Assembly (NCBI RefSeq): GCF_018595685.2
Contig: NZ_CP092334.1
Location: 2,818,001-2,882,000, forward strand
Reading direction: 5' to 3'
DNA length: 64,000 bases
From: Flavihumibacter rivuli
GTDB lineage: Bacteria > Bacteroidota > Bacteroidia > Chitinophagales > Chitinophagaceae
Shown: piece by piece, positions 1,177 through 7,256 of the stretch
Position numbering within the stretch: position 1 is the first letter of the stretch
How the letters are laid out: every line of letters begins with the position of its first letter
Program-made: the position numbers and the translations under genes
Notes under the pieces: model-generated
Databases searched by the model: none
The model's input: the letters and a program-made list of their open reading frames with translations, nothing else
What the model was told of the DNA's origin: nothing

Positions 1177-2001
1177 TCAAACGAAAAGATCATTCATCAG
1201 CTTCATGGAAGGATTCACTGCATATTTGCTAAGGTCCGTGATCCCTTCTGCAGCCAGTACTTCCTCATCAATGAAAAAGTTACCGGTACAATCATAGGAA
1301 GGCCGCTTCAGGATATGGTAGGCCGCATCCGCAACGATCTCCGGAGTACGACTGCGTTGCATCAGGAAATCACCTCCCAACAGGTTCTCCACCGCGGCAG
1401 TGGCAATGGTCGTTTTGGGCCAAAGGGCATTCGCAGCGATCCGGTGGGGCTTCAATTCTTCGGCCAGTCCCAGGATCACCATGCTCATGCCATACTTGCT
1501 CATGGTATAGGCCAGGTGCGGCGCAAACCAGCGTGGATCCATATTCAGGGGCGGGGAAAGATTCAGGATATGCGGGTTATGCGATTGTTTGAGGTAGGGA
1601 ATGCAGGCCCTGGACATGAAAAAGGTACCCCTGACATTGATACCGTGCATCAGGTCCCAGCGCTTGGGCTCTGTTTGCTCGGTGGGCGTCAGGCTGATGG
1701 CGCTGGCATTATTGATCAGGATATCAATACCCCCAAAAGCTTTCACGGTCTCCTCTACCGCATTCTGGATACTGTCCTCGTACCTGATATCCACCTGGAG
1801 GGGAAGTACTTTTCCCGGACCGGCCTTATCGATCTCTTCGGCAGCACTATAAATGGTGCCCTCCAACTTGGGATGGGGCTCAACCGTTTTGGCAGCAATC
1901 GCAATATTGGCACCATCCTGCGCTAAACGCAGGGCTATGGCCTTACCAATGCCCCTGCTGGCGCCGGTTACCAATACATTCTTGTTCTGGAATAGCATCA
2001 T
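1177..2001 (-). CDS. SDR-family NAD(P)-dependent oxidoreductase (HSDL2-like)
   Basis: Classical-length short-chain dehydrogenase (274 aa) with a Rossmann fold. The nucleotide-binding glycine motif TGASRGIGKA is near residues 12-21, the structural NNAS motif is in the middle, and the catalytic pair appears as YTMSK. The unusual SPPLNMDPRW stretch before the catalytic Tyr and the ALWPKT segment after it are typical of the hydroxysteroid-dehydrogenase-like protein 2 (HSDL2) branch, whose substrate is unclear. The start is one of two adjacent ATG codons (2001 or 1998). It stands alone, convergent with lysS; I cannot name a substrate. Confidence 0.9.
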   Translation of the reverse strand: MMLFQNKNVLVTGASRGIGKAIALRLAQDGANIAIAAKTVEPHPKLEGTIYSAAEEIDKAGPGKVLPLQVDIRYEDSIQNAVEETVKAFGGIDILINNASAISLTPTEQTEPKRWDLMHGINVRGTFFMSRACIPYLKQSHNPHILNLSPPLNMDPRWFAPHLAYTMSKYGMSMVILGLAEELKPHRIAANALWPKTTIATAAVENLLGGDFLMQRSRTPEIVADAAYHILKRPSYDCTGNFFIDEEVLAAEGITDLSKYAVNPSMKLMNDLFV

Positions 2002-2150
2002 TTTCTCTTGGTTTATTCTTTGCTAAAGGTTTAAGAACCAATGTAAAAAGAAAGTTTTAAGAAAGATACGTGAGTTCTACCAATAGGCCTATCGTAAACT
2101 TACGATTCTGTCAGTAAAAAATGAAGACGGAAAATTCAGCAATAGTGCTC

Positions 2151-2181
2151 TTGTTCCGGGCATGCATTCCTTCTACTTTTG
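2151..2181 (+). promoter_or_regulatory. Bacteroidota-type promoter for the GNRA-hairpin RNA
   Basis: TTG at 2151-2153, a 20-base spacer, then TACTTTTG at 2174-2181, an exact match to the TAnnTTTG -7 box. Predicted transcription start is about 2187-2190. No ORF of credible length follows on this strand before the terminator at 2602-2632. Confidence 0.7.
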
Positions 2182-2187
2182 TATTGT

Positions 2188-2636
2188 CAGTTGATTGATA
2201 GCGATCAAAAAATCCTAAGAAAGACCAAGAACAAATCCTAAGAAAGACCAGACCGATGTAAATCGGACAATCCTAAATCCAAATCCCGAAAGGGAAGAAA
2301 AACCAAAAGAGATCCAATATCCTGAGACCCGGCAACGGGCAAGAAGAACCGAAACCAAGAAATCCAAGTCCAGACCCGGTAAGACGGGAAGAACAACCAG
2401 AAATCCAAAATCCAACCGCGAAAGCGGAAAAACCAAGTCCAGATCCAGATCTTACGAAAAACCACGAAGATCAGCATCTATCGAACTGACGCCGAGTTTA
2501 AAATCCAGTATCTGTAGTAATCCAAAATCCTTTGAACGACGAGAAAATTTGTACCTATTGATGACCGAGACCTTGATGGTTCTGAATCGTACAAAAACAT
2601 TAAACAACCCGGTGTGATCCACCGGGTTGTTTATTT
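2188..2636 (+). ncRNA. Candidate structured non-coding RNA with tandem GNRA-tetraloop hairpins
   Basis: A 450-base stretch with its own promoter and a strong terminator but no plausible plus-strand ORF. The sense strand is rich in A and C and poor in T. It contains a string of short perfect hairpins: CCGAT-GTAA-ATCGG (2253-2266), CCC-GAAA-GGG (2285-2294), CCCG-GCAA-CGGG (2328-2339), CCCG-GTAAGA-CGGG (2375-2388) and CCGC-GAAA-GCGG (2416-2427). Four of the five loops fit GNRA. Linkers are unpaired and repeat ATCC about 14 times (often AAATCC or CCAAAATCC). An 18-base direct repeat occurs at 2210-2227 and 2233-2250. Longer stems lie at 2448-2472 and 2548-2595. I do not recognise the family. The two minus-strand ORFs here have low-complexity translations and look spurious. 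Confidence 0.65.
2602..2632. terminator. Strong bidirectional terminator between the RNA and tolC
   Basis: A 13-bp perfect stem (AAACAACCCGGTG / CACCGGGTTGTTT) with a 5-base loop. It is followed by T-rich sequence on the plus strand, and on the minus strand by AATGTTTTTG about 20 bases past the tolC stop. It can end both the candidate RNA and the efflux operon. Confidence 0.88.
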
Positions 2637-2652: not shown

Positions 2653-3951
2653 TTACCAAATCTTCATCCCAACGATCTTATGACTTTCTATCTTATCCAG
2701 CTGCATCTGGTATTGCAACTGCACCATGCTTAATTGTGCATCTTCTACTGCCACCTGGGTGGTGAGTAATTCCACGCTGGTGATCAACCCCTCCTTGAAC
2801 CTCACCTGGGCCAATTGGAAGGCTTTCTCTGCCTGCCTTACCAAAACCTCCTGGTTCCTCAGTTTCTCTTCCAGGTTGCGGTAATCCTCATTCACCCTTG
2901 CCAGGTCCCTTTCCACCTGCTGTTCCAACGTGGTGATCGACTGCCTTGTGGCATCAATACTCACCTGGTTCATTTTCTGTTCCAGCTTTGGCCTATTGGC
3001 GCTGAAGATGGGAATACTGATCCCCACCCCTACCATTCCGTTCAGGCGCATCTGCCTGATATCGGGAACGAAACCATTCTTCACCCCACCTGCAGCCGTA
3101 CCGAAAACTGTCGGGCTAAAGTCTTTCCTGATCACCTGGTTATTGATGTTCAGCAGTTCCAACTGGTTGTTGATCTGCTTCAATTCCAGGCTGTAATTGC
3201 GCCAGGTTGCCGAATTGGCCATCTGGGTAAAATCTGTAGTCACAATATCCCTGATCTTGCCATGCTGGTCCTCGCCGGTCAATAACTTCAGCGCTATATA
3301 CTGTTGTTCCTGCTGGGATTGCAGGTCCTTCAACCTGTTCCTGGCATTGGCGATCCTCACCTGCGTGGTCAGCAGGTCGTATTCCAGGGCATCCCCGTTC
3401 CTGATCTTGGCCTGGATCAACTTCTCATTTTCCTGCAGGGCCTTGATCTGCCCTTCCTGTACAGCAATGGCCTTATTCAGGAAGAGAACAGTAAAATAGG
3501 CCTGGCTGACCTGGTAGGCAACCGCATTCTTGCTGAGGTCGATCCCGCCCTTCTGCCATTTCTTTTCAGACTGGCTGCGCTCCAATTGGATCCTGGTCTT
3601 CCCAAAATCATAGAGCAACTGGTTTACACCAACAGCCAGATTGTAATTGTCATTGGGTGCGAACTGCAGGTTCTTCCCATCAAAATTCACCTTGGGCACA
3701 GGAGCCACATAACTCACCATGGCATCTCCCTGCACGGTAGGCAGCCAGTTGCTACGGATCAGTTCCTGCTTCACATCATTCGATTGCAACTGGATCTCCA
3801 TTTCCCTGATCTTCGGGTAATTGTTTACGGCCTGCTGGATCAGGGTGGCCAATTGCTGGTCCTTCAATACCAGCGAATCCTGCGCTATGGTAACAGTTAC
3901 CAACAGGATCGCAGTAATGGTTACAACTATTCTTTTCATTATTGCATTCAT
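2653..3951 (-). CDS. TolC-family outer membrane efflux protein
   Basis: 432 aa with an N-terminal signal peptide (residues about 1-24, ending TIAQ). The rest is the long heptad-rich alpha-hairpin pattern of outer membrane efflux factors, with two similar halves (about residues 35-225 and 240-430). The C-terminal part has the usual AQVRFKEGLITSVELLTTQ element. It is the exit duct for the tripartite pump encoded just upstream (HlyD-type adaptor and DHA2 carrier); the gap to the carrier gene is 14 bases and all are presumably co-transcribed from the tetR promoter. Substrate is unknown. Confidence 0.92.
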   Translation of the reverse strand: MNAIMKRIVVTITAILLVTVTIAQDSLVLKDQQLATLIQQAVNNYPKIREMEIQLQSNDVKQELIRSNWLPTVQGDAMVSYVAPVPKVNFDGKNLQFAPNDNYNLAVGVNQLLYDFGKTRIQLERSQSEKKWQKGGIDLSKNAVAYQVSQAYFTVLFLNKAIAVQEGQIKALQENEKLIQAKIRNGDALEYDLLTTQVRIANARNRLKDLQSQQEQQYIALKLLTGEDQHGKIRDIVTTDFTQMANSATWRNYSLELKQINNQLELLNINNQVIRKDFSPTVFGTAAGGVKNGFVPDIRQMRLNGMVGVGISIPIFSANRPKLEQKMNQVSIDATRQSITTLEQQVERDLARVNEDYRNLEEKLRNQEVLVRQAEKAFQLAQVRFKEGLITSVELLTTQVAVEDAQLSMVQLQYQMQLDKIESHKIVGMKIW

Positions 3952-3965
3952 TTCAATTCATGTCT

Positions 3966-5549
3966 TTAATGTGCGGCCTCCATGGCTTCCTTCACTGCCT
4001 TGGCATCAACCGGCTGCTTCTTCTTCACTTTCATAAAGAAGGCCAAAGGCAAGACAGCAAGGAAGAACAGGCCGATCAGGTGGAACGTATCGAGGTAAGC
4101 GAGGTAATAGGCCTGCTTATCCACGGCCAGGTCAATAACCTTTTGCGCTTTCAGGCTGGCACCACTTATATCGCCTGTTTTGGCTGCAATGCCCTGGGTA
4201 AGCGCATTCAACCTTTCTGTGTAGGCCGGTGCGCCTTCATAGAAATTGGACACCAGGTCTGAACGGTGCTGGGCATGGCTATGGGCGATATAGTTATTGG
4301 CCATGGCTATCCCGAAAGCACCACCGATCTGGCGGATCATATTGTTAAGGGATATCCCTGCCGCATACTCGCTGGGATGCAATCCGGCTACTGCCTGGTT
4401 GATCAATGGCAGCTGTGCCATGGAGATACCAAAGGCCCGTACCATCAGGGCCGGGAAGAAATCCCACCTGCCTGCGTCCGGACTGACCGAAGCGCTCATC
4501 CAGGAGTAAAGCGAAAAGAGGATAAATCCTACGATCGTAAATGGGATCGGTGAAACCCCCTTGCTCATGGCCTTCCCGATGACCGGCATCATGAATACCC
4601 CGATCAGGGTGGGGAAGAGCAGGGATAGACCTGTTTCCAGGGGAGTATAACCTAATACCCTTTGGGCCAATACCGGGTACACAAATACCGATGTAAACAA
4701 TCCCAGACCGGCCACGAAGGTGAAGAGGGTGGTGAAGGCATAGCTTCGGTTGTTCATCACCTTTAGGTTGACAACAGGATGTGGTGTGGTCAATTCCCGC
4801 CAGATAAAACCCACTACTCCTACTATGGCAATGATGGCACTTATCCTGATGGTGTCACTGGCAAACCAGTCTTCTGACTCACCACGTTCCAGCACATACT
4901 GCAGGCATCCGATACCCGCCATCAGCAAGGCGATCCCCATATAGTCGATCTTGATGCTTTCCTTCTTCTCGCCCTCGCCTTCCTTTTTATCAATGAAGGT
5001 GATGGAGAGCAAGGTGGCGATGATACCGATGGGGATATTGATCATGAAGATCATGGGCCAGGAAAAATTATCGATCAGGTAACCACCCACTGTTGGACCA
5101 AGGGTCGGACCCAACACCAATCCCATCCCGAACAGGCCGGAGGCCATCGGGCGGTCTTCAGGAGCAAAAGCATCGAACAGGATGGCCTGGCTGGTGGACA
5201 ACAATGCGCCACCACCGATACCCTGCACAAAGCGCCATGCTGTGATCTCCATGAGCCCTGTTGATTCCGCACACATATACGATGCTGCGGTAAATATGAT
5301 CATGGAGGCGATATAATAATTCTTCCTGCCAAAGTACTCGGCAAGAAAGCCGGTCATGGGGATGATGATCACGTTGGCAATGGCATAGGCCGTTATCACC
5401 CAGCTCACATCTTCAATGTTCACCCCAAGGCTGCCGGCCATTTCATTCAGGCCAACGTTAACGATAGATGTATCGATCAACTCCATCACAGCTGCTGTCA
5501 CCGTGGTCAGCACTATGATGAACTTGGCGAATCCTTTTGGACTTGACAT
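3966..5549 (-). CDS. DHA2-family MFS drug transporter (EmrB/QacA type)
   Basis: 527 aa integral membrane protein with about 14 hydrophobic segments, as expected for the DHA2 drug:H+ antiporter family. The motif after TM2 is GFLAEYFGRKNYY (motif A-like), and the TM5 region carries GLVLGPTLGPTVGGYL (antiporter motif C). The acidic LIDTSIVNVGLNEMAGSLG at the N-terminus is the family's motif D1. It lies 4 bases after the adaptor gene and 14 before tolC, giving an EmrAB-TolC-like pump under a TetR repressor. Confidence 0.94.
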   Translation of the reverse strand: MSSPKGFAKFIIVLTTVTAAVMELIDTSIVNVGLNEMAGSLGVNIEDVSWVITAYAIANVIIIPMTGFLAEYFGRKNYYIASMIIFTAASYMCAESTGLMEITAWRFVQGIGGGALLSTSQAILFDAFAPEDRPMASGLFGMGLVLGPTLGPTVGGYLIDNFSWPMIFMINIPIGIIATLLSITFIDKKEGEGEKKESIKIDYMGIALLMAGIGCLQYVLERGESEDWFASDTIRISAIIAIVGVVGFIWRELTTPHPVVNLKVMNNRSYAFTTLFTFVAGLGLFTSVFVYPVLAQRVLGYTPLETGLSLLFPTLIGVFMMPVIGKAMSKGVSPIPFTIVGFILFSLYSWMSASVSPDAGRWDFFPALMVRAFGISMAQLPLINQAVAGLHPSEYAAGISLNNMIRQIGGAFGIAMANNYIAHSHAQHRSDLVSNFYEGAPAYTERLNALTQGIAAKTGDISGASLKAQKVIDLAVDKQAYYLAYLDTFHLIGLFFLAVLPLAFFMKVKKKQPVDAKAVKEAMEAAH

Positions 5550-5553
5550 AGGT

Positions 5554-6591
5554 TTACTTTAAGGGAACACTCACTTCAGCACTCAAACCGGCACGCAGGA
5601 CCTGCTTGTATTGATCCGCATCATTGATGGCGATCTTTACCGGCACACGCTGTGTCACCTTTACGAAATTGCCGCTGGCATTATCAGGGGGGAGAAGGGC
5701 GAAACGCGCCCCGGTAGCCTCACTCAGGCTTTCAATGGTTCCCTTCAGTTTGAGTTCATCATAGGCATCCAGGGTAATATCCACCTGCTGGCCGGGATGA
5801 AGTTTCCTGATCTGGTTCTCCTTAAAGTTCGCCACGATCCAGTAGGTGGTATCGTTCACGATGGTGAACAAGGGCATACCAGCCTGTACATACTGGCCAA
5901 CGGCAACATTCTTCTTACCGATCTTACCTGCCTGCGGCGCATATACCTTGGTGTAAGAGATCTTGAGTTCCTGCTGTTCGATCTGTGCCTTTCTCACTGC
6001 AATTCCTGCTTCGGCTTTCTTCACTGCAGCCTGCAATACAGCTATCCTGCTCTCTGCGGATGCCAGGTCGTTGTTGCTATTGTCCAGCTGCTTTACCAGT
6101 GTCTCATAGTTGAAGCGACTGTCTTCCAGCTGGCGCTGGGTGATGGCATTCTCTGCATAAAGGTTCTTATCGCGGCTGAAGTCCTTTTGCGCTTTCTCCA
6201 GCTTTACCCTGTTGATATCTATATTGCCTTTGTTTACCCTGAGGGAAACGAAGGCATTGTTCAGGGCAGCTTTCGCATTCTCCAGATCTGCCAATGCTGC
6301 ATTATAATCGGCTTGCATCTGCAGGAGCTGCGTTTGTAATTCTGCATCGTCCAGTTCTACCACCAACTGGTTGGCCTTTACCGAATCAAAATCCTTGATG
6401 GCAATGGTCTTTACATAGCCTGCCACCCTCGGTAGAACAGGCACCAGTTGCGTTTCGATCTGGGCATTGTCGGTTGACTCATGCGTCAGGGCAAAGTTGA
6501 TCTTCCTGTAGGCGAAGAAACCTACAGTCAGTAATACAACACTTAGAATGATCAGTCGGACAGGTGATTTCTTTTTTACTTCTTGTTCCAT
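5554..6591 (-). CDS. HlyD/EmrA-family membrane fusion (adaptor) protein
   Basis: 345 aa. A single membrane anchor at about residues 12-30 follows a lysine-rich cytoplasmic start. Then come a biotinyl-lipoyl-like half (VLPRVAGYVKTIAIKDFDSV), a long coiled coil (about 75-200), the second lipoyl half (YTKVYAPQAGKIGKKNVAVG) and a beta-barrel segment (IVANFKENQIRKLHPGQ). It links the inner-membrane carrier to TolC. It starts 20 bases after tetR and is the first structural gene of the efflux operon. Confidence 0.93.
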   Translation of the reverse strand: MEQEVKKKSPVRLIILSVVLLTVGFFAYRKINFALTHESTDNAQIETQLVPVLPRVAGYVKTIAIKDFDSVKANQLVVELDDAELQTQLLQMQADYNAALADLENAKAALNNAFVSLRVNKGNIDINRVKLEKAQKDFSRDKNLYAENAITQRQLEDSRFNYETLVKQLDNSNNDLASAESRIAVLQAAVKKAEAGIAVRKAQIEQQELKISYTKVYAPQAGKIGKKNVAVGQYVQAGMPLFTIVNDTTYWIVANFKENQIRKLHPGQQVDITLDAYDELKLKGTIESLSEATGARFALLPPDNASGNFVKVTQRVPVKIAINDADQYKQVLRAGLSAEVSVPLK

Positions 6592-6611
6592 ATATCACAT
6601 TTGAATAGGTC

Positions 6612-7256
6612 TTAGTTCTTGTTTTGCAAATGGGCATGCATCATGTCTTTCAGGTGCAGCTTCACGCGCTCCATGAAAGAATCATCTTCATAAGGTTTAA
6701 AATCCGCCGGGGCATCGGTCATTTTGATCACCATGCAATCGTTGATCAATACCTGGTAAATGGTGCCGATGAGGGATGAGAGGGTCATTTCAATATCTAC
6801 CTTCCTGAATTCGCCATCATCGATGCCTTTTTGGACGATATGCTTGATGATGCGCATGTTGCCAATGAAAATATTGGCCATGGTTTCATGGAAATGGGAC
6901 CGTTGCTGTACTGTCATTTCACGCATAATGGTCAACGTGAAGCCCCTGTGTGAGAACAGCCTTTCCACATAGCTGTCGATGATCCGGTTGATTTTTTCAG
7001 CAGCACTAAGGGACTGGTCATCCATCAATTGTTGCAGCTTTCCTTTCAGGAAGGAAGCCCTGCGCTCAATCATTTTCTCAAACAATCCCTCCTTGCTGCC
7101 GAAATAATAATTGACCATGGCCACGTTCACATTGGCCAGTTGGCAAACCTCCCTTACAGAAGTACCTTCAAATCCCTTATTAAAGAACAATTGCTCGGCC
7201 GCTTCCAGGATCTGGTCACGCTTTTCAACCTTTTCGATTTTCCCTTCCATAAACAT
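6612..7256 (-). CDS. TetR/AcrR-family transcriptional repressor of the efflux operon
   Basis: 214 aa. The N-terminal helix-turn-helix (about residues 31-60) shows the family signature GTSVREVCQLANVNVAMVNY followed by YFGSKEGLFEKM; the C-terminal half is a divergent ligand-binding helical domain. It is the first gene of the tetR-hlyD-emrB-tolC operon and lies directly downstream of two tandem palindromes that overlap its -7 box, so autorepression relieved by a pump substrate is the likely logic. A second ATG two codons in (7250) is also possible. Confidence 0.92.
   Translation of the reverse strand: MFMEGKIEKVEKRDQILEAAEQLFFNKGFEGTSVREVCQLANVNVAMVNYYFGSKEGLFEKMIERRASFLKGKLQQLMDDQSLSAAEKINRIIDSYVERLFSHRGFTLTIMREMTVQQRSHFHETMANIFIGNMRIIKHIVQKGIDDGEFRKVDIEMTLSSLIGTIYQVLINDCMVIKMTDAPADFKPYEDDSFMERVKLHLKDMMHAHLQNKN

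Follow-up and report, generated by a model that had tools for sequence, protein, structure and literature searches.

A multi-copy family of repeat-bearing noncoding RNAs in Chitinophagaceae, often located beside response-regulator genes

An unannotated RNA gene, consisting of a promoter, an RNA of ~450 nucleotides and a terminator, lies at positions 2151-2636 of the window, by which we mean the whole 64,000-nucleotide stretch of Flavihumibacter rivuli DNA that was analysed. Judged from sequence, the gene is one of at least three copies in its own genome of a multi-copy RNA family, which within the limits of our searches is found only in the Chitinophagaceae. This family is present in several copies per genome in soil and water bacteria, has one elaborate shared promoter and is often located beside signalling genes. 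An earlier note on the same DNA, made from the letters alone, had proposed a standalone RNA gene under selection; our comparisons place that gene, beyond what the note says, in a family whose copies share a promoter and are often divergent from response-regulator genes. The features of the locus are as follows.

1177..2001, minus strand: divergent SDR oxidoreductase gene, the conserved neighbour
2091..2106, no strand assigned: upstream element 1, the palindrome ATCGTAAACTTACGAT; across the family its consensus is about TCGTAAnnTTACGA
2114..2125, no strand assigned: upstream element 2, GTAAAAAATGAA (GTAAataaTGaA in SDR-type copies, GTAAaTaCcGaA in other copies)
2138..2150, no strand assigned: upstream element 3, imperfect palindrome AGCAATAGTGCTC, which abuts the -33 box
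2151..2181, plus strand: promoter TTG-N20-TACTTTTG (TTG at 2151-2153, N20, TACTTTTG at 2174-2181)
2186..2633, plus strand: predicted noncoding RNA, its 5' end placed from the -7 box and its 3' end from the terminator
2186..2206, plus strand: 5' arm of the closing helix P1 (predicted fold and arm-pairing tests)
2207..2468, plus strand: AUCC / GAAA(A/G)ACC repeat region inside P1 (motif counts)
2253..2266, plus strand: hairpin 1, GUAA loop (tetraloop starts at 2258)
2284..2295, plus strand: hairpin 2, GAAA loop (tetraloop starts at 2288)
2328..2339, plus strand: hairpin 3, GCAA loop (tetraloop starts at 2332)
2375..2388, plus strand: hairpin 4, GUAAGA loop (2379-2384)
2416..2427, plus strand: hairpin 5, GAAA loop (tetraloop starts at 2420)
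2469..2490, plus strand: 3' arm of P1 (predicted fold and arm-pairing tests)
2496..2545, plus strand: conserved 3' repeat unit, GTTTAAAATCCAGTATC ... ATCCAAAATCCTTTGAACGAC (general anatomy TTTAAAATCCAGTATC ... ATCCAAGATCCTAAGAAACGAC)
2548..2595, plus strand: invariant 3' hairpin UUUGUAC...GUACAAA, with a conserved internal CUAUYGAUGRCC
2601..2633, plus strand: intrinsic terminator with a 14-pair stem (predicted fold)

The region has the make-up expected of a standalone noncoding RNA gene, with its own predicted promoter and terminator, without a conserved open reading frame (ORF) and kept in relatives. There is no plus-strand ORF of 40 or more amino acids within 2151-2636, in agreement with the earlier note, and the longest ATG-initiated ORF of the window RNA spans a single amino acid. 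Among 54 SDR-type copies, the type to which the window copy belongs, the longest such ORF has a median length of 17.5 amino acids and a maximum of 81. The plus strand folds more stably than any of 100 shuffles (z = -2.70), a value to which the included terminator contributes, and 15 of 100 shuffles are as stable as the minus strand (z = -1.06, terminator also included). The terminator itself had been described with a 13-bp stem; it is present, but the stem comprises 14 pairs. A terminator-like hairpin is found downstream in all 56 SDR-type loci that have enough sequence, compared with 45 of 600 random stretches of the F. rivuli genome. Further downstream, a row of genes at 2653-7256 reads, by inspection without a family search, as TolC, an MFS efflux pump, an HlyD-type adaptor and a TetR regulator. 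The gene downstream of the RNA differs in several relatives, where it is for example aldo/keto-reductase-like.

The promoter TTG-N20-TACTTTTG is located exactly where it had been reported, and its architecture is one that we take to be of the Bacteroidota type. TTG-N19/20-TAnnTTTG is present in 53 of the 57 distinct SDR-type loci; the exceptions are three loci with a final A (L059, L071 and L082) and one that is cut off (L090). About 60 bp of additional conserved promoter elements lie upstream of 2151, outside the bounds of the earlier note. Whether or not a copy is of the SDR type, its three upstream elements keep a nearly fixed distance to the -33 TTG, and their general order is about TCGTAAnnTTACGA, then GTAAAnnnTGAA, then AGCAnnnnTGCTCTTG (whose TTG is the -33 box), followed by TAnnTTTG.

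A sequence-only model of this promoter and the first 22 nucleotides of the RNA (R3) finds three strong sites in the genome of F. rivuli (E values 3.2e-23, 1.3e-15 and 1.4e-15), namely the window copy and positions 1,674,305 and 206,279. The next best site scores E=0.043, and thus the promoter seems to serve almost nothing but these RNAs. Both additional sites head RNAs of the same make, with GAAGUUGAUUGA..., AUCC repeats, UCAAUCAACUU and further repeats. One of these copies (L192, 2306-2433 onward, plus strand) points away from a LuxR-type response regulator gene and towards rpsA, with which it is convergent, and the other (L193, 4280-4153 onward, minus strand) lies upstream of a BtuF-like gene. 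Across the family, an R3 site at E<=0.05 occurs in 235 of 324 genomes, weak look-alikes included, with up to 10 sites per genome among the best 10 scored. Three loci (L195, L196 and L204) each carry an array of four consecutive copies next to a BtuF-like (periplasmic-binding-protein) gene; every copy has a promoter of its own and most, by eye, also a terminator. At E<=0.001, searches of 295 genomes of the class and 169 of the order also produced 13 loci outside the family (L227-L236 and L249-L251, best E 5.5e-6), all of which were rejected because by eye they are coding DNA or mRNA promoters lacking a repeat body. One locus within the family, L248, is doubtful.

A DNA search of 59 relatives gave a match at E<=1e-5 in 13 of the 14 other genomes of the genus and one at E=3.5e-5 in another genus; the single genus genome without a match (G006) is 55% complete. 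A covariance model (R1) built on the 3' domain has matches in at least 37 of 294 family genomes and at least 11 of 101 genera, one copy in each genome, whereas the promoter model finds several copies per genome. A wider model (R2) matched at least 17 of 396 genomes of the order, all within the family and including one further genus (L131), and at least 3 of 395 genomes of the class, where the only match outside the family (L132) is a coding look-alike by eye. These many-genome searches used stricter filters, and their copy counts and absences are limits that err on the low side, since only 10 to 20 candidates were scored per genome.

Scanning named genomes with a pattern yielded 52 stretches, spread over Flavihumibacter, Puia, Niastella, Pinibacter, Flavitalea, Pseudoflavitalea, Paraflavitalea, Pseudobacter and relatives, two of which (L072 and L074) are chance coding matches and were discarded. 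The SDR-type comparison set comprises 57 distinct loci; the strict pattern left out one genuine copy, L078. The SDR gene is located divergently upstream in 55 of the 57 loci, the other two being the locus that is cut off (L090) and one with lysS instead (L059). Of 23 SDR loci whose genomes lack an R1 match, two (L138 and L145) still contain a divergent version of the RNA that can be recognized by eye. The conserved core consists of the promoter, the closing helix, the AUCC/GAAAnACC linkers, the 3' hairpin and the terminator.

Read from 5' to 3', the copies present TAnnTTTG, the P1 5' arm, a variable A/C-rich region, the P1 3' arm, the 3' unit, the hairpin and the terminator. Compared with dissimilar arms taken from other copies, the P1 5' arm of a copy pairs with its own interior better by a mean of 5.7 kcal/mol. 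When arms were swapped among the 54 + 55 copies with corrected 5' starts, at most 1 of 30 swapped arms was equally good for 53 of the 109 copies, and more than 1 in 30 was equally good for the other 56. By energy, 68 of 125 copies beat all 50 of their shuffles, in a set where some SDR-type rows have a wrong 5' start. In the regulator-adjacent group, 96.9% of cells pair, compared with at most 47% when the arms are slid; 9 of the 13 pairs never vary and compensatory change is seen in one of the 13, in four cells. RNAalifold predicted no structure for group A4. P1 is thus well supported by complementarity and weakly by covariation. In many copies (for example L195, L225 and L239), a 5' GAUUGAU may, by eye, pair with a nearby AUCAAUC; the resulting hairpin may rival part of P1 and so act as a possible switch.

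The five short hairpins on which the earlier note dwelt, with GTAA, GAAA, GCAA, GTAAGA and GAAA loops, were all located at 2253-2427. The window RNA carries four tetraloop hairpins (four perfect pairs, at least two of them G-C) and all four are GNRA, compared with a mean of 0.035 in 200 dinucleotide shuffles, none of which reaches four; the claim that these loops are unlikely to arise by chance is therefore borne out. Among 14 SDR-type copies of the same genus, 10 of 10 tetraloop hairpins are GNRA, and they are present in 7 of the 14 copies. None was found in 40 SDR-type copies from other genera, which does not support their being the key feature that the earlier note took them to be. The GNRA hairpins are real and exceed chance, yet they are genus-specific. 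The hairpins are positioned as spacers between the AUCC / GAAA(A/G)ACC elements, and a compensatory change is visible by eye in hairpin 1, which is CCGAU/AUCGG in the window and CUGAU/AUCAG in L005. The 3' hairpin has no covariation, its stem hardly varying, in part because some rows were found with a pattern that holds the stem. In non-SDR copies (for example L193, L195 and L196), the P1 3' arm was located 50 times and is followed by five or more U residues in 40 of them, which would be compatible with an additional 3' end ahead of the main one or with a U-tail binding site.

There are exactly 14 ATCC units in the window RNA, where about 14 had been noted, and they start between 2212 and 2527. 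The 18-base direct repeat AAATCCTAAGAAAGACCA, also reported earlier, is present at 2210-2227 and 2233-2250. The 54 SDR-type copies together contain 485 ATCC units, where dinucleotide shuffles give 162 (s.d. 11), an excess of about threefold, and 90 GAAA[AG]ACC elements, where shuffles give 4. The corresponding counts for the first 200 nucleotides of 55 other copies are 331 against 121 and 37 against 1.8. GAAA(A/G)ACC is missing from many copies, with a median of 1.5 per SDR-type copy and 0 per other copy. SDR-type copies contain 4 to 14 ATCC units whose number and places vary while the motif stays. Pairs of ATCC favour a spacing of 6-8 nucleotides (ATCC-N2..4-ATCC, 192 against 103, s.d. 10, in shuffles that keep ATCC). 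A composite element, ATCC-N2..4-[AG]TCC-N2..7-GAAA, occurs 75 times in 56 of the 109 copies, compared with 1.5 occurrences expected from dinucleotide shuffles of these copies and 7.8 from shuffles that keep ATCC. These statistics fit the multivalent sponge that the earlier note had suggested.

The linkers are A-rich and G-poor. In two samples of 30 copies each from the 109, the predicted unpairedness of ATCC sites is 0.72 and 0.69, compared with 0.57 and 0.51 for the average base and with 0.62 and 0.61 for ATCC in shuffles. Runs of the GAATGAATGAA type were seen in the repeat region of five copies of the Puia/Flavitalea group (L083, L086, L109, L110 and L114) and in none of the Flavihumibacter copies.

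Gene context was assessed for 57 copies in 32 loci, a set drawn from the strongest R3 matches and hence not random, in which the L216 copy at 1161 is weak (E 6.5e-4). There are 22 copies divergent from two-component genes, of which 19 are LuxR-type regulators and three are LytTR systems; the other 35 copies have no two-component neighbour. The LuxR-type neighbours have receiver and GerE domains where scanned. Four loci (L200, L201, L216 and L221) contain two different regulators, each with its own RNA copy, one of these copies being weak. A LytS/LytTR-like pair is divergent from the copies L199 10174, L202 5459 and L214 4284, as judged by eye for L202 and by Pfam for L199 and L214. These three copies form a subfamily of their own, in which GUUGAUUAAUUGAUACGGUUUCC is an example of the 5' end. 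The remaining context copies comprise 21 in loci with a BtuF-like gene and 14 in neither group, and no regulator was found beside the SDR-type and BtuF-type copies. The LuxR-type regulator query returned only two distant relatives (28-31% identity) in a 464-kb sample of the F. rivuli genome, and thus such regulators are not everywhere.

Going beyond the observed gene structure, conservation, promoter, motif enrichment, copy number and neighbourhood, we propose, with a confidence that falls a little short of even, that these RNAs are activated by a response regulator and titrate a single-strand RNA-binding protein, much as CsrB and RsmZ do but unrelated to them in sequence. A two-component response regulator, most likely the divergent LuxR-type one, would bind the upstream elements and thereby switch on the RNAs, whose transcription is itself presumed. 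The closing helix and the 3' hairpin would hold the long unpaired linkers open. The many AUCC and fewer GAAA(A/G)ACC elements of the linkers would then bind the protein, perhaps one resembling KH, RRM or cold-shock proteins, and titrate it away from mRNAs by the logic of CsrB and RsmZ with a different protein. A multi-operator promoter that seems almost reserved for these RNAs, multiple copies, short motifs that stay numerous as their places shift, linkers predicted to be open and the association with regulators together fit titrating RNAs under two-component control. However, adjacency to a regulator does not prove control.

More tentatively, the family may constitute a Gac/Rsm-like circuit in a phylum from which, in the case of Bacteroides, CsrA has been reported absent. 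Bacteroides are described, in a portion of PMC12119571, as generally lacking Hfq, ProQ and CsrA and as using KH, RRM and cold-shock proteins. In such a circuit, response regulators would activate the RNA copies, the element AUCC-N3-AUCC-N4-GAAAnACC would titrate a putative global RNA-binding protein, and the adjacency of RNA and regulator would have been kept through the Chitinophagaceae.

The main rival is antisense action. The repeats could equally be antisense seeds. The unpaired AUCC/GAAAnACC linkers would pair with many mRNAs and the copies would be redundant siblings, as with the multicopy FopS sRNAs of Bacteroides, which act by pairing according to the part of PMC11697453 available to us. 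Predicted unpaired repeats and multiple copies are both compatible with this arrangement. However, GGAT occurs 68 times in 303 start regions of the own genome and 121 times in 310 mid-gene stretches, and TTGGAT (2 versus 5) and GGTCTT (0 versus 4) likewise show no excess at starts in the 303 genes, a comparison that covers one mode of pairing only. The same GGAT counts give no support, at start codons, to the decoy for GGAT-containing transcripts that the earlier note had offered. Moreover, the positions of the repeats and their flanks turn over. We consider multi-seed antisense regulation unlikely, but it retains real weight.

Another possibility is an RNA that serves a housekeeping machine, such as a 6S-like RNA for RNA polymerase, a decoy for the ribosome or Rho, or a scaffold. 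Its near-universal presence in the genus and its strongly conserved promoter would suit such a role, as would the composition of the linkers and the five Flavihumibacter loci (L192, L205 and L207-L209) in which a regulator-adjacent copy is convergent with rpsA. The rpsA link is loose, however, since other genes separate the copy from the stretch that reads as rpsA in L211 and L212. In addition, the shape is not the long bulged hairpin of 6S RNA, and no 6S-type family matches. This explanation seems to us rather improbable. We give still less credence to a cis element, in which transcription through the unit controls a divergent or downstream gene (SDR, regulator or BtuF-like) and the RNA product does little. 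Such an element could explain why the SDR gene is the neighbour at 55 of 57 loci and why regulators are found alongside copies in several genera, and intergenic sites could serve both sides. Against it are the terminators in all 56 informative SDR-type loci, the occurrence of RNAs of the same make beside unrelated genes, and the conservation of repeats and 3' hairpin within the RNA. Finally, the sequence is repetitive and A-rich, but a non-functional repeat-rich intergenic region or a mis-read coding gene is very hard to reconcile with a promoter, 3' hairpin and terminator conserved across genera and with the lack of a conserved ORF.

If the titration proposal is true, an environmental family of Bacteroidota carries a multi-copy regulatory RNA system that is missing from the current RNA library, and the protein that they bind would represent a new sort of global regulator acting after transcription. 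Direct experimental handles are offered by the repeat element, by the promoter and by the response regulator. A promoter-anchored model can also uncover families of RNAs that ordinary searches miss because the RNA bodies diverge too quickly. The proposed working principle, that of multi-copy titrating RNAs, is a known one, and would operate here with a new family, motif, host group and partner.

Neither the window nor 18 paralogue loci gave any Rfam match at the curated cut-off. Two permissive searches, which covered the region and 14 homologous loci, gave 40 and 6 matches, all below the cut-offs, and most of the 40 involve microRNA models that fit hairpins in other parts of the loci. Long hairpins around 2850-3010 in L008 and L011-L013, which are other intergenic inverted repeats, score as microRNA models in this way. 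The best permissive match in the region, to the sRNA ncr1015 at 2532-2637, reaches 30.4 bits (cut-off 60) with E=0.027; it was set aside as a terminator look-alike because ncr1015 also scores on the other strand of the terminator. No description of these RNAs was found in the literature, as judged from titles and the openings of abstracts.

In copy number and phylum, the family resembles the multicopy FopS/GibS sRNAs that operate with RbpB in Bacteroides thetaiotaomicron, and an RbpB-like RRM protein, which would recognize single-stranded regions, is one kind of candidate partner (both from a portion of PMC11697453). FopS is presented there as a single-stranded 5' stretch plus a terminator, and that part of PMC11697453 mentions neither a closing helix nor AUCC repeats. 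It also states that FopS was deposited in Rfam; no Rfam family matched in our comparison, for which the release used may not contain FopS. 6S RNA and its Bacteroidota variants are likewise standalone conserved RNAs with a closing helix. They differ from the present family, which has an unpaired repeat-rich interior and several copies, and which gave no match to the 6S-type family, curated or permissive, in the window, its homologues or the 18 paralogue loci. A 6S-Flavo search of 20 genomes was also without a match, but its controls were silent too.

CsrB/CsrC and RsmX/Y/Z are sponges for CsrA/RsmA that are controlled by GacA/UvrY. Membership in the Csr/Rsm families is excluded by sequence, in that no model matches at the curated cut-off or among the permissive matches and the window loops (GUAA, GAAA, GCAA, GUAAGA and GAAA) lack GGA; it is only the working mode that we compare. 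The motif here is AUCC/GAAAnACC and resides in linkers. The palindrome also has a different spacer, and the elements are close to the promoter at nearly fixed spacing. The UvrY consensus TGTAAGNNNNNNCTTACA, as given in an excerpt of PMC4682653, shares GTAA/TTAC half sites with TCGTAAnnTTACGA, a resemblance rather than a test. What the present family has in common with CsrB and RsmZ is that a genome encodes several such RNAs, that short motifs recur many times in them, that a palindrome lies upstream of the promoter, and that there is an association with a LuxR-type response regulator, which here takes the form of adjacency.
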